The translations under genes were made by a program, and so were the position numbers. From contig JAUMZN010000010.1 of the NCBI GenBank assembly GCA_030528085.1, forward strand, positions 1-33,360: a stretch of DNA of 33,360 nt, given 5' to 3'. Of the stretch, positions 13,443 to 27,054 are shown piece after piece (the first letter of the stretch is position 1; each line of letters opens with the position of its first letter). The notes below the pieces were generated by a model. The model saw only the letters and a program-made list of their open reading frames with translations, did not search any database and had not been told where the DNA came from. Origin of the DNA: Erysipelotrichaceae bacterium (GTDB taxonomy: Bacteria; Bacillota_I; Bacilli_A; Erysipelotrichales; Erysipelotrichaceae).

Positions 13443-16076
13443 TTATTGATCTTGATCTTCTTCGAGTTCTTTGATGAATGCTTCAAATTTTTCCTGTTGT
13501 TGAAAATCGATCGCTTCATCTTCTTGTGAATCTGATTTGGGTTCAATTTCTTGTCTTGCCTTTGCGATCGCTTCTTTTTCCATGCGCTCAAGTTCTGTGA
13601 TCGATGATTTCAAAGAAGCTTTGCGTAAAACATCCGTTTCACTTTCATACTCTTGCATTTGCGAAAGTCGGCGTTGATGTAAATCGCGAATCGCTTGCAT
13701 AGATGCATCAACATCAAATAGAGGCAAAGCAGGAATTTCTTCCGTATTTTCTGACTGTTCGATCGTCTGTTTTTCTAAAACATCTTCATGTGTAGACTCA
13801 TTGTCTTTTGAATCCAAAACAGAAGACTCTTCTAATTGGCTATGTGAGTTTTCGTTTGGCAAGTCGCTTTCTAAAAGATGCGCATTAGACATTTCCACTG
13901 GTGGAGTCGGTGGTAAATCCGGCATTTGTTCTGGACGATTTGCAAGTTCTTTTTCTCTTGCTTCTTTTGCCAATTTAGCCATCGCTGGTGCTTCAAAAAT
14001 CATGATCGCTTTAAATAAATCGCCATCAGTTTGGACTTCGAAAGATCCTTGCTGAATTTCAGTAAAGCTTTTAACGATCGCAAGTCCAAGGCCGCTTCCT
14101 GCTTCATGTCTAGAAGCATCCCCACGCGTAAATCGTTCAACGATCGATTCTGGCGTAAAGTTCATCTGCGTACTGGAGATGTTTTTAAAGATGATATGGC
14201 AGAAGCCTTCTTGTTCGTATAAATCGACAAATACGCGCGTGTTTTTCATGGCGTACTTGTAAATATTAGACAACAAGTTTTCGATAATCCGCACGGTTTT
14301 GCCCGGATCCAAATGAACGATCGCATTTGGTTGCAAGTTCATGACAAGCGTTAATTGTTTTTCTTCAAATTGATCGGTCCATTCTGCGGCGACTTGCATA
14401 ATCAATTCGCTTAAATCTAAATCAATTTGTTCAAGGACAATATCACCACTAGTCGCTCTCGCCACATCGAATAAGTCAGAGATTAAATCCGTTAATCGTT
14501 CTGAATATCCTGTTAAACGTTTGGAATATTCATGAATGTCATCCATGTTATCGGATAAAGTAATCAGTTCCGCATAGCTTTGAATGCCGGCTACTGGTGT
14601 TTTTAAATCGTGTGAGACGTTCGAAATTAATTGTGTTTTCGAAATCTGCGATGCCAAACCTTCTCTGACTGCCTCTTGGCAGCTGTTCGATGTTTCGACT
14701 AACAAGTTATACAGCGGCTGATATAATCCGATGTCTTGTTGTTCTAAATCAGTGAAATGGCCATTCGCAAGTTTTTGGCTAGCTTGATACACTTTTTGAT
14801 AACTTTGATCAAGACGGCTGTACATGCCCCATAAAAATCCGCAACAAAGCAATACCGCAAGAACAAAGCCGATAATCAATCCGACTGAATCAAAGACCAT
14901 GCCAAAACCGGCGATAATCGCACAAGCGATAACCATTAAAATGCTGCCCAAAACAAAAATTTGGAAAATCGCATTATTGTTAGTTGAAGAACTCATAACT
15001 TCAACGAGATTAATTTGGCTATTGCGCAAAATATTTGCGACTAACGTATCTTGCTGCAAATAACGCAAAATGCCTTGCGAGAAAATGGACTTGATATATA
15101 GCAACAACAATGCGATCAGTTGAAATAAAATCATCCAACCGATAACCACTGTTGTAAACGCCGTGAAGTTGGCCTGATTGGCGGTTAATCCAAAGCTTTC
15201 CAACAATTGATTAAGAGTACCGCTCGCTTTAAATACGGCAATCGCATATAAGAAAGAAGCCACCGCATAAATTGAGATTCCCATCGTCAGCCAGGCGAAT
15301 AATGCCTTCATATTGCGCAACTGGGTCAGCATGAATGTATCTTTTTCATATTTCCAATGCGTGAGAATGATCACAGCGGCGAGAACTCCCGTTCCCGCAA
15401 ACAGCGCGAAAAAGAAGTTTCTCGCATCCATGTTTTCGCAAGTTCGTGCGATAATTCCCGCATTCGGTTTAATCGTAGATGGAATATAGTAGCGAATCGA
15501 AAAATCGTTAGGCAGATTTAACGAATACGTATATTCTGATCCTTTTTGCGAACCTAAACGTTTCGTTGGAACAATTGATGGCGGGACTAAAATCGTCTTT
15601 TTGGCATCAAACGTTTGGGTTGGATAATTCAATCCCGAATAAGAAATTTTATCTCCGCTTTTGCGAATCGTATAATCGAGCGCACCTGTTTCTAAGTTAT
15701 AAGAATCTTTCCAGTTATGGGTATATTCATGATCAATGCCATCAATGCGCATATGAATAATCCACGCTAAGTTGCTGTCTTTGGACAGTTGATCATTGCT
15801 TAAACGGATCGACGAAGTCAGCGTCTCCGCAATGTAATCTTGAACTTCTTGAGGCGCATCTTCTTCTACTTTTAACCATTGTGCTTGTGAATCTAAACTT
15901 CGTAATCTCGAAATCGTATTTTGTTCTAAATATTCTTGCAGCGAATTAACTAAATAGATGCGCTGCGAATTTTGCGAGATGAAGATTCGTCCGGTAATTT
16001 GACTGGCTAAAACCGAAATCACGATCATCAGCACAGTGATTAACGAAGTAAACCAAAAGCTTTTTTTCTTTTCCAT
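13443..16076 (-). CDS. Membrane sensor histidine kinase with long acidic C-terminal tail
   Basis: Sensor of a two-component system, 877 residues. A signal-anchor helix (about 9-26) is followed by an extracytoplasmic domain (about 30-218). Five more hydrophobic segments lie near 221-240, 256-278, 305-327, 371-392 and 395-417. A HAMP-like stretch follows, then the H-box with phospho-acceptor His489 (NVSHDLKTP), N-box Asn600 (IIENLLSNIYKYA) and G-box SGLGLAI (661-667). The catalytic domain ends near 696. The last 180 residues are an unusual cytosolic tail: Pro-rich (LPPTPP), then strongly acidic and Gln/Glu-rich with coiled-coil character. Its start codon shares one base with the response regulator stop (TAATG). 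The signal is unknown. Confidence 0.93.
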   Translation of the reverse strand: MEKKKSFWFTSLITVLMIVISVLASQITGRIFISQNSQRIYLVNSLQEYLEQNTISRLRSLDSQAQWLKVEEDAPQEVQDYIAETLTSSIRLSNDQLSKDSNLAWIIHMRIDGIDHEYTHNWKDSYNLETGALDYTIRKSGDKISYSGLNYPTQTFDAKKTILVPPSIVPTKRLGSQKGSEYTYSLNLPNDFSIRYYIPSTIKPNAGIIARTCENMDARNFFFALFAGTGVLAAVIILTHWKYEKDTFMLTQLRNMKALFAWLTMGISIYAVASFLYAIAVFKASGTLNQLLESFGLTANQANFTAFTTVVIGWMILFQLIALLLLYIKSIFSQGILRYLQQDTLVANILRNSQINLVEVMSSSTNNNAIFQIFVLGSILMVIACAIIAGFGMVFDSVGLIIGFVLAVLLCCGFLWGMYSRLDQSYQKVYQASQKLANGHFTDLEQQDIGLYQPLYNLLVETSNSCQEAVREGLASQISKTQLISNVSHDLKTPVAGIQSYAELITLSDNMDDIHEYSKRLTGYSERLTDLISDLFDVARATSGDIVLEQIDLDLSELIMQVAAEWTDQFEEKQLTLVMNLQPNAIVHLDPGKTVRIIENLLSNIYKYAMKNTRVFVDLYEQEGFCHIIFKNISSTQMNFTPESIVERFTRGDASRHEAGSGLGLAIVKSFTEIQQGSFEVQTDGDLFKAIMIFEAPAMAKLAKEAREKELANRPEQMPDLPPTPPVEMSNAHLLESDLPNENSHSQLEESSVLDSKDNESTHEDVLEKQTIEQSENTEEIPALPLFDVDASMQAIRDLHQRRLSQMQEYESETDVLRKASLKSSITELERMEKEAIAKARQEIEPKSDSQEDEAIDFQQQEKFEAFIKELEEDQDQ

Positions 16077-16789
16077 TAGTCGCGGCGCAGTTTATAACCC
16101 AAGCCCCAGACAACTTGTAAATAAACCGGTTTTTTTGGATTTTCTTCGATTTTTTCCCTTAACTTACGAATATGAACGGTAATCGTTTCTGTTGAAAGGG
16201 CATCTTCTTTCCAAATCGCTTCATAAATTTCCGCAGCTGAAAATACTCGTCCAGGATTGCGCATTAAAAGTTCAAGAATTAAGAATTCTTTTGGCGTTAA
16301 ATGAACTTCTTTGCCATCGACGCGAACTTCTTTCGTCATCGTATTGAGCTCTAGGCCGCGATTGACTAACAGTTCTGCTTTTTTATCATCGACCCCGGTT
16401 GTTTTCATTTCCAAGAAACGATCATAACGGCGCAAAGCGGCATTGACGCGCGCTAATAATTCCATTGACGAGAATGGTTTCGTTAAATAGTCATCTGCTC
16501 CCATCGTTAAGCCGTTAATTTTATCGACTTCTTCTGAGCGGGCAGAAAGAATGATGATTGGAAAATCGTATTTTTTGCGAACTTCTTGAATCATCGTCAA
16601 TCCATCCATGACTGGCATCATTAAATCGACAATCGCAAGGTGTACTTGATCTCCTGCTTTATCCAATTGTTGCAATCCTTCCATTCCGTTTTCCGCTAAC
16701 AAAGTATTGTATTGCTGGCTTTTTAAGTAAATATTAATTGCTTCGCGAAGGCCTTGATCGTCTTCGACAACAAGAATTAGGTGTTCCAT
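16076..16789 (-). CDS. OmpR/PhoB-type response regulator
   Basis: DNA-binding partner of the downstream histidine kinase. 237 residues: receiver domain (1-120) with acidic pocket Glu9-Asp10-Asp11, phospho-acceptor Asp55 (LAIVDLMMPVMDG), Ser82 and Lys104 (LTKPFSS); then a winged-helix domain with HLTPKEFLILELLMRNPGR and the recognition region TETITVHIRKLREKIE, ending GLGYKLRRD. This is the VanR/YycF-like architecture. It is the first gene of the run regulator > kinase > AI-2E-type protein > GT8. Upstream, the inverted repeat GACCAAA-6-TTTGGTC (16879-16898) might be its binding site, but this is unproven. Confidence 0.95.
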   Translation of the reverse strand: MEHLILVVEDDQGLREAINIYLKSQQYNTLLAENGMEGLQQLDKAGDQVHLAIVDLMMPVMDGLTMIQEVRKKYDFPIIILSARSEEVDKINGLTMGADDYLTKPFSSMELLARVNAALRRYDRFLEMKTTGVDDKKAELLVNRGLELNTMTKEVRVDGKEVHLTPKEFLILELLMRNPGRVFSAAEIYEAIWKEDALSTETITVHIRKLREKIEENPKKPVYLQVVWGLGYKLRRD

Positions 16790-19147: not shown

Positions 19148-19477
19148 TTAATAGTTGGTAATCGGTTTTCGTTCAGCTTTTAAATTATGTTTTTTTCCTG
19201 AACGTTTTGCGAGTTCAGCTTCTACTTCTGCCATCGAAACATCTTTTTGCGCCATCAAAACAGTTAAATGATAAATCAAATCTGCCATTTCGTTGACTAA
19301 ATCTTCTTTTGTTTGACTTAAAGAAGCAATGACGACTTCAGTGCATTCTTCACCGACTTTTTTTAAAATTTTATCTTCACCTTTCGCAAACAAATAAGCC
19401 GTATATGATCCTTCTTCAGGATTTTCTTTGCGGTCCATAATTGTTTGATACAAGACTTCAAATTCGTTTTGTTCCAT
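19148..19477 (-). CDS. hisE: Phosphoribosyl-ATP pyrophosphatase
   Basis: Second step of histidine synthesis: PR-ATP to PR-AMP plus pyrophosphate. 109 residues, an all-alpha MazG-like fold. Visible: the GSYTAYLFAKGEDKILKKVGEECTEVVIA helix with its EExxE-type metal site, and NEMADLIYHLTVLM with the Asp of the second site. It is a stand-alone HisE, not fused to HisI as in E. coli. Last gene of the operon; AAGGAG precedes the ATG, 26 bases after hisI. Confidence 0.94.
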   Translation of the reverse strand: MEQNEFEVLYQTIMDRKENPEEGSYTAYLFAKGEDKILKKVGEECTEVVIASLSQTKEDLVNEMADLIYHLTVLMAQKDVSMAEVEAELAKRSGKKHNLKAERKPITNY

Positions 19478-19503
19478 CTCTTCTCTCCTTGCTTTTTAAC
19501 TCG

Positions 19504-19824
19504 TTATTCTTCATCTAATAAGCGATAGAAGCAGCTGCGATTGCCGGTATGGCAAGCCGGTCCAACACTTTCTACTTGAACAAGCAATGTATCTTCATCG
19601 CAATCTTTATAAATCTTTTTGACGATTTGGAAGTTGCCCGACGTTTCACCTTTTGTCCAAAGTTCATTGCGGCTGCGCGACCAAAATGTCGCTTTTCCGG
19701 TTTGAAGTGTTTTTTCTAAAGCTTCTTCATTCATGTACGCCAACATCAAGACAGTTCCATCATGAACATCTTGAACGATCGCGGGAATGAGGCCGCCGCA
19801 TTTTTTAAAATCGAGATCGATCAT
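19504..19824 (-). CDS. hisI: Phosphoribosyl-AMP cyclohydrolase
   Basis: Third step of the pathway: hydrolytic opening of the adenine ring of PR-AMP. 106 residues, complete. Motifs: [32 protein letters not shown], the DCDEDTLL metal-binding segment, and [14 protein letters not shown] with the zinc cysteines. Stand-alone, separate from HisE. The ATG overlaps the hisF stop by four bases. Confidence 0.95.
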
Positions 19825-20576
19825 CGAACTTCGACTCCTCTCTGTTTAAGATGTTGTTTTACATCGTTGACTGTTAATTCGTTGTAGTGGAATAAAGATG
19901 CTGCAAGTGCTGCATCCGCTGCATCTTCTTCAAATACTTGGGCAAAGTGTTCTAATTTGCCGCATCCACCAGAAGCGATCACTGGTACATTCACGGCTTG
20001 TTTAATCGCCTTGCAAAGTTCTAAGTCAAAGCCTTGTTTAGTTCCATCAGCATCCATGCTCGTCAATAAAATTTCACCAGCACCTAATGCCGTTGCTTTT
20101 TTCGCCCATTCAATCGCATCGACACCTGTATCAATACGACCGCCGGCTTTAAAGCAATGCCAAGAACCATCGGGCATTTTTTTGGCATCGATTGCTAAAA
20201 CGACGCATTGTGCCCCATACACTCTTGCTGCTTGTTCGATTAGTTCTGGATGATCTAACGCAGCGGAATTCAATGAAATTTTATCGGCACCGCTATTGAG
20301 CAAGTCGCGGATTTGTTCGATCGATGAAATTCCACCGCCCACTGTGAGCGGAATAAATACTTGTTCCGCTACGCGTTTGACGACATCCACCATCGTTTTG
20401 CGTCCTTCATAAGTGGCTGTGATATCTAAAAAAACGAGTTCATCAGCACGCTGGTCGTTATACTTTTTCGCCAATTCGACAGGGTCACCCACTTCTTTGA
20501 TGCCGACAAAGTTAATCCCTTTAACAACTTTGCCATCTCGAACATCAAGACAAGGAATAATTCGTTTTGTAAGCAT
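19821..20576 (-). CDS. hisF: Imidazole glycerol phosphate synthase, cyclase subunit
   Basis: With HisH it converts PRFAR and ammonia to imidazole glycerol phosphate and AICAR. 251 residues, a complete TIM barrel. Catalytic Asp11 in [16 protein letters not shown], the second catalytic Asp in VVLAIDAKK, and the paired phosphate sites TVGGGI and ASGGCG are present. The start is two bases from the hisA stop and its AAAGGGGAG site lies inside hisA, so translation is coupled. Confidence 0.96.
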
Positions 20577-20578
20577 AC

Positions 20579-21310
20579 TTACTCCCCTTTCTCTTTGGCT
20601 AATACCGATAAAGCAGATTTCAAATCAATGGCTCCTGAATAAATTGCTTTTCCAGTTATAGCTCCCGCTACATTGCCATCGTTTTGCAGTTTTTCTAAAT
20701 CTTCTAAACTAGAAATCCCGCCGCTTGCGATAATGTCGCAAGTCGTCAGCTTAGCTAGTTTTTGATATAGTTCATGGCTTGGTCCACTCAGCATGCCATC
20801 ACGACGAATATCAGTGACGATCAATGTTCGAATTCCCGCTTGTTCCATCGTTTTTACGGCATCTTCAATCATCACACCACCATCTTCTAACCATCCAGAA
20901 ATTTTTACACGCATATCTTTACAATCTAATCCCACCGCAATGCGTCCGGGATAATCGTTTGAAAGGCGTTTGACTAAATCTAAATCTGCTAGTGCTGCTG
21001 TAGAAAGAATAATGCGCTCAATACCACCATCTAAATACGCTCGTGCTTGGCTTTCACTACGAATACCGCCGCCAACTTCAACCGGGATCGATAATGCATT
21101 GGCAGTTTGTAAAATAAGCTCATCGTTTACAGGGTGTCCGGCTTTAGCGCCATCTAAATCGACTAAGTGAACCCACTTTGCCCCATTTGCTTCAAACGAT
21201 TTTGCGGTTTCTAAAACAGAAGCGGCAACTTGGCTTGCTTGGTTATAGTCGCCTTGTCGTAAGCGAACAGGCTTACCTTCTAAAATATCAATTGCTGGTA
21301 AGACGATCAT
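20579..21310 (-). CDS. hisA: ProFAR isomerase
   Basis: Isomerises ProFAR to PRFAR, fourth step of the pathway. 243 residues from the ATG at 21310, which gives the family-standard [17 protein letters not shown]. This ATG overlaps the hisH stop (ATGA) and has AAAGGAG upstream; the frame runs eight codons further but without merit. Catalytic Asp8 and the second Asp in [11 protein letters not shown] are present, with EVGGGIRS and IASGGISS phosphate loops. TIM-barrel paralogue of hisF. Confidence 0.95.
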
Positions 21311-21951
21311 ACGCAAAACTCCTTTCCAAACCATTCCAAAATTCTAAGACCTGTTGGTCCTGATTTTTCTGGGTGAAACTGGCAGCCCATCACATTGTTA
21401 TGAATTAATACTGCCGGAATAACATAAGGTCCATATTGGGCATACGCTTTTAAATCAGCTGGATCCCAATGCATCAAGGCATAAGAATGATCAAAATAAA
21501 CATAAGGATCTGCTGCTAATTCATCAGCAAGGGCAAAATCATACGAGAAGTACAGTTTATTCCAGCCAATTTGTGGAACGGTCAATGTGACTTCTTTTCC
21601 TTTTTCATGAACGCGCAAAGACTCTAATGGACAAATATCGCCTTTCATAAAGTGCAGACCTTCATATTCGCCAAATTCAAAAGAGCGATCAAATAATGCC
21701 TGCATACCTAAACAAATCCCCAAAATCGGTTTATGACAAACTTCAACTTGGTTTTTGATCCAATCGTATAAACCACTTTCTCTTAACATGTGATCCATAT
21801 CGCCAAATGCGCCAACGCCAGGCAAAATGAGGCGTTCGCATTGTTCTAATTGTTTGGGATCAGAAGAGATGATGGCGTCTAATTTTAAATATTGGCATGC
21901 CGAGTAAACGGAATGCAGATTGCCCATTCCATAATCGATAATTCCAATCAT
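21307..21951 (-). CDS. hisH: Imidazole glycerol phosphate synthase, glutaminase subunit
   Basis: Class I glutamine amidotransferase that feeds ammonia to HisF. 214 residues. Triad: nucleophile Cys80 (LGICLGMQ), His193 and Glu195 (CQFHPEKSG). The N-terminal IGIIDYGMGNLHSV is typical of HisH. Overlaps hisB and hisA by four bases each. Confidence 0.96.
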   Translation of the reverse strand: MIGIIDYGMGNLHSVYSACQYLKLDAIISSDPKQLEQCERLILPGVGAFGDMDHMLRESGLYDWIKNQVEVCHKPILGICLGMQALFDRSFEFGEYEGLHFMKGDICPLESLRVHEKGKEVTLTVPQIGWNKLYFSYDFALADELAADPYVYFDHSYALMHWDPADLKAYAQYGPYVIPAVLIHNNVMGCQFHPEKSGPTGLRILEWFGKEFCV

Positions 21952-22529
21952 TCTAATACTCCTTTTGTCGAAGGCAAGCGATCGGATTCAATCGCAATCG
22001 CTTGTTTGATCGCGCGACCGAGTCCTTTAAAAATCGCTTCAATTTGGTGGTGATCATTTTTTCCATAAACATGGATATGCAAAGTGATGCCGGCATTAAA
22101 CGCAAATGCGCGCAAAAATTCTTCGACCATTTCTGTAGAGAAAACACCGATCATCTCGCGATGGAATTCACATTCGAAAACAAGATATGGACGACCTGAA
22201 AAATCGAGATCCACTTGCGCTAATGCTTCATCCATCGGTAAGCGACAGTTTCCATAGCGGGCAATGCCGCGTTTGTCGCCTAATGCTTTTTTAAGCGCTT
22301 GGCCAAGAATAATCCCTGTATCTTCAACTAAATGGTGATCATCGACATCGATATCACCTTGCGCTACAAGATCGAGGGCGATATTGGAATGGAAACTGAA
22401 TAGTTCCAACATATGATTGAAAAAGCCGACTGGAGTTGAAACATAACTTGTGGCTTGGTCTTCATCGAGTGAGAGTGAAAGATCGATTTGCGTTTCTTTC
22501 GTATTACGTTGCAGTTGTGCTTCTCTCAT
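21948..22529 (-). CDS. hisB: Imidazoleglycerol-phosphate dehydratase
   Basis: Dehydrates imidazole glycerol phosphate to imidazole acetol phosphate; manganese enzyme forming a 24-mer in known cases. 193 residues, the monofunctional form without the phosphatase domain of E. coli HisB. Metal motifs DDHHLVEDTG and KNDHHQIEAIFKGLGRA are intact, as is FFNHMLELFS. It follows a 61-base gap after hisC, with AAAGGAGAT before the ATG. Confidence 0.96.
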   Translation of the reverse strand: MREAQLQRNTKETQIDLSLSLDEDQATSYVSTPVGFFNHMLELFSFHSNIALDLVAQGDIDVDDHHLVEDTGIILGQALKKALGDKRGIARYGNCRLPMDEALAQVDLDFSGRPYLVFECEFHREMIGVFSTEMVEEFLRAFAFNAGITLHIHVYGKNDHHQIEAIFKGLGRAIKQAIAIESDRLPSTKGVLE

Positions 22530-22555
22530 AAATATCTCCTTTCAAAATTCTCTTT

Positions 22556-22595
22556 GTTGATCCGAACTGATTGATCATGTATGTTGTGGATCAAC
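22556..22595 (-). repeat. Hairpin in the hisC-hisB gap
   Basis: Perfect 8-base inverted repeat GTTGATCC/GGATCAAC with a 24-base loop, starting in the hisC stop region. No T run follows, so it is not a normal terminator. It may protect or set the level of the downstream message. Confidence 0.45.
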
Positions 22596-23625
22596 TTTCT
22601 TGAATCAACTTTAAAACGAGATCGTTTTGTTCAGGTAAACCAATCGTAATACGAATGCGCTCATGACTTAGCCAAGTCCGTAATTGGATATTTTGTTGAA
22701 CAAAACTTTGTTCTAATTGTTCATTGCGTTTTAAATCGAGATTGCCTTGTTCATCCACAAAGCTAATCGCATAGAAATTGGCATGCATTGGGCCAACTTT
22801 TAAATTTTTTACTTGTTCGAGCGTTTTGGCGATGCGTTTAGTTTCTTGTTGAATGCATGCGACGTATTCATCTTTAACTTCCGGATGGGCAAGACCTGCT
22901 TTAGCAGCAATTTGATCGAGCGTTGAAACAGAATAAACAACGCGCCATTTAGCCAGTTCGCTAGCGAGTTTTTCGTTCGTGACTAAAAAGCCACAGCGAA
23001 TACCCGCCAGTCCCCAAGCTTTGGATAAAGTTCTCGTCACAATGACGTTTTGTAAAGATTGCACTTGATCCAACAAACTTTGATCGGAAAAATCCATATA
23101 CGCTTCATCGACAGCTAAAACAATTGGGTCAAGTACTTTAGCCATCTGTAAAAGGGTTTGACGATCTACTTGATGCCCTGTTGGATTATTCGGATTGGAG
23201 AATAAAACTAATCCAGCTTGTTTTTCTTTCGCAAATTGAACAAACGCTTCAACATCAAATTCGCCTTGCCATTTTGTTTGATATGCATACACTCTGCTTT
23301 GCATCGCACTTGCATAGAAGTCATACATACCAAAATCCGGTTTAAGCGTGACTAATGGGCGATCTTGGCGACAAAGTGAGTTGATCATCATTTGTAAAGT
23401 TGCATCACTGCCATTCCCGACTAAAATTCCGTTGGCATCTAGATCGTATAATTTCGCAAATTGTTGAGCGAGCGCAGTGGCTTGATCATCTGGATAACGA
23501 TTGAGATGACCGGCTTTTAAATCTTGAGCAATTTGATCCAAAACAACTTGTGCCGGTTCGTTGGAACATTCATTGGCATTTAGCAACATTCCTTGTTGGG
23601 CATGGGCTTGATAAAGAGCACTCAT
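22591..23625 (-). CDS. hisC: Histidinol-phosphate aminotransferase
   Basis: PLP enzyme converting imidazole acetol phosphate and glutamate to histidinol phosphate. 344 residues, class II aminotransferase fold type I. Visible: LNANECSNEP, YPDDQ, GNGSDATLQ, SNPNNPTG, DEAYMDFS and the PLP lysine Lys202 in TRTLSKAWGLAGIRCGF. Twenty bases separate it from hisD. Confidence 0.94.
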   Translation of the reverse strand: MSALYQAHAQQGMLLNANECSNEPAQVVLDQIAQDLKAGHLNRYPDDQATALAQQFAKLYDLDANGILVGNGSDATLQMMINSLCRQDRPLVTLKPDFGMYDFYASAMQSRVYAYQTKWQGEFDVEAFVQFAKEKQAGLVLFSNPNNPTGHQVDRQTLLQMAKVLDPIVLAVDEAYMDFSDQSLLDQVQSLQNVIVTRTLSKAWGLAGIRCGFLVTNEKLASELAKWRVVYSVSTLDQIAAKAGLAHPEVKDEYVACIQQETKRIAKTLEQVKNLKVGPMHANFYAISFVDEQGNLDLKRNEQLEQSFVQQNIQLRTWLSHERIRITIGLPEQNDLVLKLIQES

Positions 23626-23645
23626 CGTTTTTCCCCTTTCGTATT

Positions 23646-24941
23646 TTATTGATATTGTTTTAAGCGAATCGCAACGGCATTAGCGTGCGCATCTAAATCT
23701 TCTTCTTGTGCCATTTTGACAATTTTCTTCCCATGTTTAATTAAAGCTTCTTTGGAATAATAGAGATAAGAAGATTTCTTCACGAAATCTTCTACGGAAA
23801 GTGGTGAAGAAAAGCGTGCCGTTTGCGAAGTCGGCAAGACGTGGTTTGTCCCGCCAAAATAGTCTCCAATACTTTCACAAGTCGTATACCCTAAGAAAAT
23901 TGATCCGGCATTGCGGCAAAGGGTGCGGTATTGATTGGCGTCTTGGACTTGTAATTCCAAATGTTCAGGTGCAACTTCATTCGCAATCGCGATAGCATCT
24001 TCAATGGAATTGGCAAGAATGCTTGTTCCATAATTGGCTAAAGATTGTTCGATAATTTCTTTTTTCGGCAATGCATCCGTTTGTCTGCGCAATTCTTGAT
24101 TGACGGCATCAATCATGTTTTGATCCGTTGAAATTAAAATTGAGCAAGCCATTGGATCGTGTTCTGCTTGGGATAATAAATCTGCAGCAACAAATGCCGG
24201 ATTAGCATGTTCATCGGCGATGACGAGAATTTCACTTGGACCGGCAATCATATCGATATCGACTTTGCCATAGACTAATTTTTTCGCCGCGGCGACATAC
24301 ATGTTGCCAGGACCGACGATTTTATCGACTGGCTGAATTGATTCAGTACCATAGGCTAAAGCCGCAATCGCTTGTGCCCCACCAACGGTATAAATTTCAC
24401 TCACTCCTGCTACTAGTGCTGCAGCTGCTAAGTTTGGGGCAAGTCCGCCATCTGCACTTGGTGGAGTGGTCATGACGATGCGTTTTACGCCCGCAATTTT
24501 GGCAGGAATTGCGTTCATCAATACAGAAGATGGATATAATGCTCTTCCTCCGGGAACATAAATGCCGACAGATTCTAAAGGGAAAATCATTTGACCTAAA
24601 TAAACACCATCTTCACCTTCTAAGTGATATCCAGAACGTTTTTGTTCTTGGTGATAAAAGGTAATATTTTGTGCTGCTTCTTGCAGAGCCTGCACAAAAA
24701 ATGGATCTGCTTTTTTAGCTTGTTGCTCAATGACTTCTTGAGGAACTTTGAAGCTTTCTAATTCGATGCCATCAAAGCGTTTTGTATATTCCTTGAGCGC
24801 TTGATCTTTATTTTGGCGAACATCATCCAAAATTTTACTTGTTGCGATCAGCGTTTCTGGGCGAATTTCGTACGCCCGCGATGCTAAATAGTTCGCCAAT
24901 TCTGTTTTATTTTGTTGTAAGTAAGGTTTAAGCATGTTCAT
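23646..24941 (-). CDS. hisD: Histidinol dehydrogenase
   Basis: Last two steps: histidinol to histidinal to histidine with two NAD; zinc dependent. 431 residues. The signature is intact: VPGGRALYPSSVLMNAIPA, VGGAQAIAALAYGT, VGPGNMYVAAAKK, IAGPSEILVIAD, LLSQAEHDP and APEHLEL. It overlaps the hisG end by 14 bases. An ATG two codons inside (24935) is an equally good start. Confidence 0.96.
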   Translation of the reverse strand: MNMLKPYLQQNKTELANYLASRAYEIRPETLIATSKILDDVRQNKDQALKEYTKRFDGIELESFKVPQEVIEQQAKKADPFFVQALQEAAQNITFYHQEQKRSGYHLEGEDGVYLGQMIFPLESVGIYVPGGRALYPSSVLMNAIPAKIAGVKRIVMTTPPSADGGLAPNLAAAALVAGVSEIYTVGGAQAIAALAYGTESIQPVDKIVGPGNMYVAAAKKLVYGKVDIDMIAGPSEILVIADEHANPAFVAADLLSQAEHDPMACSILISTDQNMIDAVNQELRRQTDALPKKEIIEQSLANYGTSILANSIEDAIAIANEVAPEHLELQVQDANQYRTLCRNAGSIFLGYTTCESIGDYFGGTNHVLPTSQTARFSSPLSVEDFVKKSSYLYYSKEALIKHGKKIVKMAQEEDLDAHANAVAIRLKQYQ

Positions 24942-25566
24942 CCACCGCCTTTTTTAAATCTGCAAGAACTGCTGTAATTTCATCTTTTTTCAATTTCCAA
25001 CTTGCTTTGTTGACAATGACCCGTGCTGAAATTTGCGCACATACATCTAATACAACTAAGCCATTGGCTTTAAGTGTGCTGCCTGTTTCCATAATGTCGA
25101 CAATTCCATCGACTAAACCAATCAAAGGAGAGAGTTCAACAGATCCATCGATTTTAATGATTTCTACATCCATATTTTTGGATAGAAAATAACGACGAGC
25201 GACATGCGGATATTTGGTACCAATACGAATTCGGCCTTTTTTCTCAAATAAATTTGTTTGTGGCAAGGAAGCAACGATAAAGCAACATTTTCCCGTTTGA
25301 AGATCTAACATTTCAAAGTAATCTTCGCCCTCATTTTCCATTAATGTGTCTTTACCCACGACACCAAGATCAGCAACACCGTGTTCAACATAAGTGATGC
25401 AGTCATTGGATTTTACTAATACATAATCAATATCTTTCTTTGTGTCAGGTAAAACTAAAGCGCGGCCTTTATTGCGGACTTTTTCAGTTCCATAACCTGC
25501 TTGTTCCAACATCGTGAGCGTTTTGTCTTCTAAACGACCTTTCGTTAAAGCAATACGTAAACTCAT
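24928..25566 (-). CDS. hisG: ATP phosphoribosyltransferase, short form
   Basis: First committed step: ATP and PRPP to PR-ATP. 212 residues, the short form that lacks the C-terminal regulatory domain and works as a hetero-octamer with HisZ, which is encoded immediately upstream. Visible: LRIALTKGRL, VKSNDCITYVEHGVADLGVVGKD and DIMETGSTLKANGL (PRPP site). Feedback inhibition is expected to pass through HisZ. The ATG overlaps the hisZ stop (ATGA). Confidence 0.96.
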   Translation of the reverse strand: MSLRIALTKGRLEDKTLTMLEQAGYGTEKVRNKGRALVLPDTKKDIDYVLVKSNDCITYVEHGVADLGVVGKDTLMENEGEDYFEMLDLQTGKCCFIVASLPQTNLFEKKGRIRIGTKYPHVARRYFLSKNMDVEIIKIDGSVELSPLIGLVDGIVDIMETGSTLKANGLVVLDVCAQISARVIVNKASWKLKKDEITAVLADLKKAVDEHA

Positions 25567-26678
25567 GGCCGCACCTCTCTTTCCACAACAATCTCTGTTT
25601 GTTGATCATCCAATAATAAAGCTACCGGTCCTTCTAGACGTTTTTGTTTAGCCAATGCGTATGCCTCTTTAGCACTAGAGGAAGGATAGCGAATAATGAG
25701 GATTTCTCGATCTTCTAACGTATCTAATAATTCAACTAATGGATCGATTTTAAATGCGAAGCCGATCGCAGGTAATGGCCGGCCAAAACTAGCCATTAAA
25801 TTGTCGTAACGGCCGCCGGATAAAATTGAACCACTCACACCTGGAACAAAGGCTTCAAAAATAATGCCTGTGTAATAGTTCAAATGCGGCAGTTTACCTA
25901 AATCGAATTGAATATATTCGCCATAGCCAAGTTCTTGTAAAAAGCGGCCGAGCGTTTCTAAATCTTGCAGCGTCTGAATCGTTTCTGCATCTTGAGCAAG
26001 TGCTTTGGCCTTTTCGAAAACTTCTAAACCTCCATCCAATAAAGGCAAGTTTATAAAGTATTGGCGCACAGCTTCATCTAAATCGAATTGGTCTAAAAAC
26101 TCACCGAGTTCAACCATCGATTTACGATCCGTTAAATCTGCAAGTTTTGCGATATCTTCAGGGCGATCAAAACATTTCATCGCCGGTACTTGTAATAACC
26201 TGGCATCAGATAATTCAATTTTATAATTTTTAAGACCACTCGCCTTGAGCGCTTCAAGTGCACAAACAAGAATTTGCGCATCATCTTTAGAACCAATAAG
26301 TTCAACACCACAATCCAATGTTTGACTTTTGCGGCCTGTATAAGCTTTTCGCACTTTCCAAACATCGGACAAATACGATAAACGAAGCGGTACTTGCGCA
26401 TTTTTTAAAGACGTCGCGGCAAGTCTTGCGATTGGAACTGTCATATCCATACGCATCGTGACGATATCTTGATTTTCATCAAATAACTTAATCATCTTGC
26501 GATCTTGTAAAGTCGCAAAAGCTTGGTTGTATGTTTGGTAGTATTCCAAAGCTGGCGTTTGTACTTCCTCAAATCCAAATTGATCAAAAACATGTTGGAT
26601 TCGATCACAAAGCTCTCTTCGCTTTCTCACTTCTTTTGCGAGTTTATCTGAATTACCAAGTGGCGTTCTTAATTCCAT
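25563..26678 (-). CDS. hisZ: ATP phosphoribosyltransferase regulatory subunit
   Basis: HisRS-like protein without tRNA charging activity; it activates short HisG and carries its histidine control. 371 residues. Motif-2-like TMRMDMTVPIAR and the HisRS-like sections YTGIIFEAF and SGGRYDNL are visible. The C-terminal anticodon-binding domain is short, as expected for HisZ rather than HisS. First gene of the operon; AAAAGGAAGATG lies before the ATG, just after a 9-base hairpin, and the T-box leader lies upstream. Confidence 0.92.
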   Translation of the reverse strand: MELRTPLGNSDKLAKEVRKRRELCDRIQHVFDQFGFEEVQTPALEYYQTYNQAFATLQDRKMIKLFDENQDIVTMRMDMTVPIARLAATSLKNAQVPLRLSYLSDVWKVRKAYTGRKSQTLDCGVELIGSKDDAQILVCALEALKASGLKNYKIELSDARLLQVPAMKCFDRPEDIAKLADLTDRKSMVELGEFLDQFDLDEAVRQYFINLPLLDGGLEVFEKAKALAQDAETIQTLQDLETLGRFLQELGYGEYIQFDLGKLPHLNYYTGIIFEAFVPGVSGSILSGGRYDNLMASFGRPLPAIGFAFKIDPLVELLDTLEDREILIIRYPSSSAKEAYALAKQKRLEGPVALLLDDQQTEIVVEREVRP

Positions 26679-26698
26679 ATCTCATCTTCCTTTTCACA

Positions 26699-26720
26699 CC
26701 ATCTAAATTGCTTTAGATGG
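26699..26720 (-). repeat. Hairpin just before the hisZ ribosome binding site
   Basis: Perfect 9-base stem CCATCTAAA/TTTAGATGG with a 4-base loop, placed between the T-box terminator and the hisZ ribosome binding site. No T run follows. A role in mRNA stability or initiation is possible. Confidence 0.5.
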
Positions 26721-26774
26721 AAGATTCTCGATTCCTTATTGAACGCGTCATTTCGATGCGCTCTTTTCTTTAAT

Positions 26775-26806
26775 AAAAAAAAAGCTTCCATCCCAAAGGA
26801 CGAAAG
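26775..26806 (-). terminator. T-box-controlled terminator
   Basis: Minus strand CTTTCGTCC/GGATGGAAG (with two wobble pairs) and loop TTTG, then C and nine T residues. It is mutually exclusive with the antiterminator, which uses the same TTTCGT and CCTTT. Confidence 0.92.
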
Positions 26807-27019
26807 TAAATTCCGTGTTCCCACCTTTATTCACTGCTTCCTCACGAAAGCAGCCTCTATGACTGTTTAACAGTACATCCGATAACGGGGACTCCGGGAT
26901 TCCATTTCCTGAATCCGACTCCAGAATGTGTTTCAAAACGGTTCATGACTTCTTTACACCTACCAGAAGCTCTCTAAACAATTCCCGAATTTACTCTTTC
27001 CTTCATTGTCGCTGAATTT
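26775..27019 (-). promoter_or_regulatory. T-box leader for tRNA-His controlling the his operon
   Basis: Minus-strand leader that senses uncharged tRNA-His. Visible parts in transcript order: a stem I arm with AGAGAGC, the CTTCT/AGAAG helix and GGTAGGTGTAA; a CAC specifier (His) at 26930-26928 in GAAACACATTC; a stem III-like hairpin CTGCTTTC-GTGA-GGAAGCAG; then the T-box itself, AAAGGTGGGAACACGG. The antiterminator pairs AAAGG with CCTTT and ACGGAA with TTTCGT, leaving bulge UGGGAAC. UGGN with N=G pairs with an acceptor end CCCA, i.e. discriminator C73, which is the hallmark of bacterial tRNA-His. The alternative fold is the terminator at 26775-26806. Uncharged tRNA-His should therefore allow read-through into hisZ. 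Very sure of the class; sure of the amino acid. Confidence 0.93.
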
Positions 27020-27025
27020 AAACTG

Positions 27026-27054
27026 ATTTTAGAAAGATTGAAAACACATGTCAA
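27026..27054 (-). promoter_or_regulatory. his operon promoter
   Basis: Consensus TTGACA (27054-27049), 17 bases, TAAAAT (27031-27026) on the minus strand. Transcription should start near 27019, just before the T-box stem I. Confidence 0.88.

Follow-up and report, generated by a model that had tools for sequence, protein, structure and literature searches.

In T-box regulation, uncharged tRNA stabilises an antiterminator in the leader RNA, and charged tRNA leaves a terminator to form. Whether T-boxes read the discriminator of tRNA-His is an old question, and in the mature tRNA this base, C73, is paired with G-1. The DNA analysed here (the window, 33,360 nucleotides) comes from an Allobaculum genome of the Erysipelotrichaceae, the assembly of which is 66% complete, and it raises this question through the leader of its histidine operon. 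An earlier note on this DNA had proposed that the leader carries two independent tRNA-His signatures, a CAC specifier and a UGGG bulge complementary to C73, and that uncharged tRNA-His turns on hisZGDCBHAFIE. We were interested in establishing whether the leader is a His-specific T-box and whether its bulge can be taken as a second signature of tRNA-His.

A T-box leader with a CAC specifier upstream of hisZ

The whole window was scanned with the Rfam covariance models, among them that of the T-box, RF00230 (gathering score 93 bits). A T-box was the sole Rfam match in the window (27015-26793, minus strand, 109.5 bits, E 1.4e-23 for the whole window), and it was aligned over the full length of the model (positions 1-219). 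Within this alignment the T-box sequence is GGUGGGAACACG, with UGGG at 26823-26820. The features of the locus, all on the minus strand, are as follows.

27026..27054, minus: sigma-A type promoter, TTGACA (27054-27049), 17-nt spacer, TAAAAT (27031-27026); consensus scan
26793..27015, minus: T-box leader RNA (RF00230); cmscan, full length
26928..26930, minus: specifier CAC (His) in the Stem I specifier loop; covariance alignment and register in relatives
26897..26916, minus: Stem II hairpin GGAUUC/GAAUCC with an 8-nt loop, without S-turn; alignments
26795..26828, minus: antiterminator, helix A1 (26828-26824 with 26799-26795) and helix A2 (26816-26811 with 26805-26800); structure
26817..26823, minus: antiterminator bulge UGGGAAC, its UGGG complementary to tRNA-His C73-CCA; alignment, structure and C73 in four congeners
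26776..26806, minus: intrinsic terminator, 9-bp stem, 4-nt loop and U run; terminator scan and structure
25563..26678, minus: hisZ, first gene of the operon; NCBIfam TIGR00443 above cut-off
19148..25566, minus: hisG, hisD, hisC, hisB, hisH, hisA, hisF, hisI and hisE; NCBIfam equivalogs

In the covariance alignment Stem I carries the AGAGA and distal GGUG motifs together with the codon of the specifier loop, which stands in the context GAA-A-CAC-A, and the UGGN bulge of the family is present as UGGG in the antiterminator. The Infernal search that the earlier note had put forward therefore returned a match with the predicted specifier and bulge, and no other codon was placed in the specifier loop. 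The fold of the whole leader is more stable than that of shuffled sequences (z -3.2). The promoter, also predicted earlier, agrees with the consensus at 11 of 12 positions, and its -35 and -10 elements can be aligned in three Allobaculum relatives.

For comparison, 43 his leaders were collected, of which a few are near-identical. In nearly all of them CAC stays in one register when counted from the 3' side of the specifier loop, whereas 0 to 3 bases lie between GAA and CAC; model and comparison thus both support the specifier reading. Because the same register recurs in nearly all these related leaders, a T-box with CAC at this place is far beyond chance. The specifier loop is GAAACACA, and consequently other triplets overlap CAC and might be read in another frame, as ACA (Thr) or AAC (Asn). 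This is very improbable: the covariance model puts CAC in the specifier, CAC is the only triplet that stays constant among the relatives (Allobaculum sp. Allo2 has GAATCACA), the genes downstream are his genes, and a G as the fourth bulge base suits neither A73 of tRNA-Thr nor G73 of tRNA-Asn. The Thr and Asn frames were rejected on the comparison of the relatives' leaders.

The T-box stands directly ahead of ten open reading frames in the order hisZ, G, D, C, B, H, A, F, I, E, as had been described, and a CAC or CAU specifier before histidine genes is what defines a His-specific T-box. Nine of the genes are assigned as listed above; hisC was assigned by its best NCBIfam match, which falls just under the cut-off. 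HisZ of the window is 61-69% identical to HisZ of four Allobaculum genomes.

Between leader and hisZ, a stretch of seven bases (26719-26725) complements the hisZ Shine-Dalgarno region (26684-26690), and a hairpin lies between the two. A pairing that masks the Shine-Dalgarno sequence was considered and dropped, as folding does not choose it and the relatives' hisZ leaders differ there. Elsewhere in the window (13443-16789) a response regulator is paired with a histidine kinase; the top NCBIfam matches of the two are of the VanR/VanS type, all below the curated cut-offs.

Stem II

Two elements of T-box leaders, the S-turn of Stem II and the IIA/B element, are optional. The window leader has the IIA/B element (CCGUUA), and in the alignments its Stem II is without the GAA...AGUA S-turn motif that most Erysipelotrichaceae his leaders have. 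The S-turn is also missing in the nearest relatives, Ileibacterium and G031, and several further T-boxes of the same genome likewise have none. Since Stem II is without an S-turn, docking of specifier and anticodon may be weaker in this leader.

Two mutually exclusive folds

The antiterminator is formed by helices A1 (AAAGG/CCUUU) and A2 (ACGGAA/UUUCGU), which flank the 7-nt bulge. The terminator stem-loop (26806-26785) is followed by CUUUUUUUUU. Positions 26805-26795 belong to both structures, serving in the terminator as its 5' arm and loop, so the two folds exclude each other, which bears out the earlier description of a pair built on the same bases. Computed energies are -4.5 kcal/mol for the antiterminator and -11.7 kcal/mol for the terminator. 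Both folds are present in all five Allobaculum genomes.

According to PMC7583486, the basal pair of A2 is a conserved G-U that acts as a steric sensor, the primary one for the aminoacyl group. In the window it is not the usual G-U but A26816-U26800, and the pair census gave A-U in 42 of the 43 his leaders. Most other T-boxes of Allobaculum have G-U, and a Met-like T-box (locus L005) has A-U.

Proposed mechanism

The sequence, the covariance match, the conserved architecture, the operon and the tRNA sequences of congeners make it almost certain that hisZGDCBHAFIE is under the control of a class I T-box riboswitch that acts on transcription and is specific for tRNA-His; from them we infer the response to tRNA and its direction. 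RNA polymerase would start near 27020, and CAC of Stem I would bind the GUG anticodon of tRNA-His. When the tRNA carries no amino acid, pairing of its CCA end with the bulge's UGG would let the antiterminator (26828-26795) form and the operon be transcribed. With charged tRNA-His, or with none, the terminator (26806-26776), being the more stable fold, would form and transcription would stop. In Allobaculum, opening of G-1:C73 could let C73 pair with the fourth base of the bulge, G, as well. Histidine-dependent expression has been reported for a CAC T-box before a lactobacillus hisS (PMC5313534).

Relation to known His T-boxes

A 2022 study (PMC9413887) already lists His T-boxes that precede his operons, with Allobaculum among the genera. 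The window leader agrees with those of the Erysipelotrichaceae and Lactobacillales in RNA family, specifier and target operon, and differs in its UGGG bulge, where most relatives have UGGA, and in a Stem II without the S-turn. It is thus an ordinary T-box of a kind already known and catalogued for the genus. According to the same study, in Erysipelotrichales some genera, including Allobaculum, have T-boxes and others have attenuators. Our survey fits this picture: T-boxes precede hisZ in nearly all Erysipelotrichaceae hisZ loci checked, and none was found at five hisZ loci scanned from a second family of the order. Pattern scans of a phylum sample, apparently without Lactobacillales, for His T-boxes outside Erysipelotrichaceae found recognisable T-boxes only within Erysipelotrichaceae; two Lactobacillales examples were taken from plasmids.

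The his operon of Lactococcus lactis (Delorme et al. 1999, as cited in PMC9413887) is, by that description, likewise under T-box transcriptional attenuation, in a different order of bacteria. In histidine decarboxylase clusters (PMC5313534; Tetragenococcus halophilus pHDC-RI), the T-box of hisS shares the CAC specifier, but it controls hisS and has a UGGA bulge.

The UGGG bulge and the tRNA-His discriminator

Genes for tRNA-His were located by BLAST search, as a strict tRNA-His pattern had missed most genomes. All those examined encode both C73 and G-1; one of them, framed one base off by ARAGORN, fits C73/G-1 by eye. The tRNA-His gene of the source genome itself was not found in its 66%-complete assembly, and four congeners, each with a tRNA-His(GUG) bearing C73, were used instead. 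The G of the window bulge thus stands opposite C73 of the congeners' tRNA-His. Within Allobaculum the second signature proposed in the earlier note holds. Among T-boxes with a readable bulge in four genomes of the genus, UGGG occurs in his leaders only, and nearly all the rest have UGGU or UGGC; of the tRNAs recovered in one Allobaculum genome (G002), all others having A73, G73 or U73, C73 was seen solely on tRNA-His.

Across the family it does not hold, and to call UGGG independent and characteristic goes too far. The census of bulges in the 43 his leaders gave UGGA in 34, UGGG in 6, UGGU in 2 and UGGC in 1; the six UGGG leaders represent five Allobaculum genomes, one counted twice, to which UGGG among his leaders is confined. 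UGGA cannot pair with C73. The match to the discriminator is consequently absent from most Erysipelotrichaceae His T-boxes and is not a defining feature of them. Two Lactobacillales His T-boxes, before a Nicoliella his operon and before hisS of the Tetragenococcus plasmid (L262), also combine CAC with UGGA, and UGGA has been reported in a proposed, disputed his T-box of Corynebacterium (PMC3896937). Furthermore, C73 is expected to be paired within tRNA-His, as G-1 is encoded opposite to it, and the possibility of such internal pairing led the authors of TBDB to omit discriminator matching for His (PMC7778990). Given the prevalence of UGGA in the family, its occurrence in Lactobacillales and the G-1:C73 pair, discriminator pairing is not a general signature of His T-boxes. 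The bulge base is consequently unsafe for assigning His specificity.

Mapped on a HisZ tree, the bulge base requires three changes. One falls on the branch of Allobaculum (support 100), where UGGG arose once, by a single A-to-G event. Judged from these sequences, the C73 match of Allobaculum is a derived, genus-level peculiarity of putative function.

Two readings of this change can be weighed. The one we find somewhat the more probable is that, with C73 held by G-1, the fourth bulge base of His T-boxes has in effect no partner, A or G there being neutral or serving as a stacking purine, and that G arose in Allobaculum by drift. It is consistent with UGGA prevailing in Erysipelotrichaceae and occurring in Lactobacillales, with the existence of UGGU and UGGC, and with the treatment of His in TBDB. 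However, the position is not free, because A is strongly kept (34 of the 43 leaders), and the sole derived base fixed in a genus is the exact complement of C73. In the other reading, which is possible at odds of somewhat worse than even, the match works as double coding: the bulge displaces G-1 from C73, and the additional pair raises specificity or affinity for tRNA-His. UGGG is fixed in five of five Allobaculum genomes and missing from their other T-boxes; the remaining T-boxes of the genus mostly have U or C as the fourth base, which suits tRNAs with A73 or G73; and C73 was seen on tRNA-His alone. Such a pair is nevertheless dispensable, since 34 of 43 leaders face the same C73 tRNA with UGGA; the Allobaculum tRNA-His genes retain G-1, and the change is one event on one branch. 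Still more tentative, and in our view unlikely, is the full contrast in which the Allobaculum bulge would open G-1:C73 and read C73 and nearly all relatives would ignore it. If true, it would amount to a natural test of how T-boxes cope with the only tRNA that has a paired discriminator. The contrast between UGGA and UGGG at the same C73, G-1 tRNA-His supplies natural pairs that make the discriminator-reading question directly testable.

Further observations on Allobaculum leaders

In Allobaculum mucilyticum 128 the terminator of the his T-box is separated from hisZ by an inserted transposase gene (Pfam DDE_Tnp_1; L112, 1250-2950), and the promoter upstream of this T-box looks degraded; his control in this strain may be broken or rewired. 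The Met-like T-box mentioned above (L005, 1501-1735) is near the his leader in sequence (nhmmer E 1.8e-29), with specifier AUG and bulge UGGU, and may share a recent origin with it.
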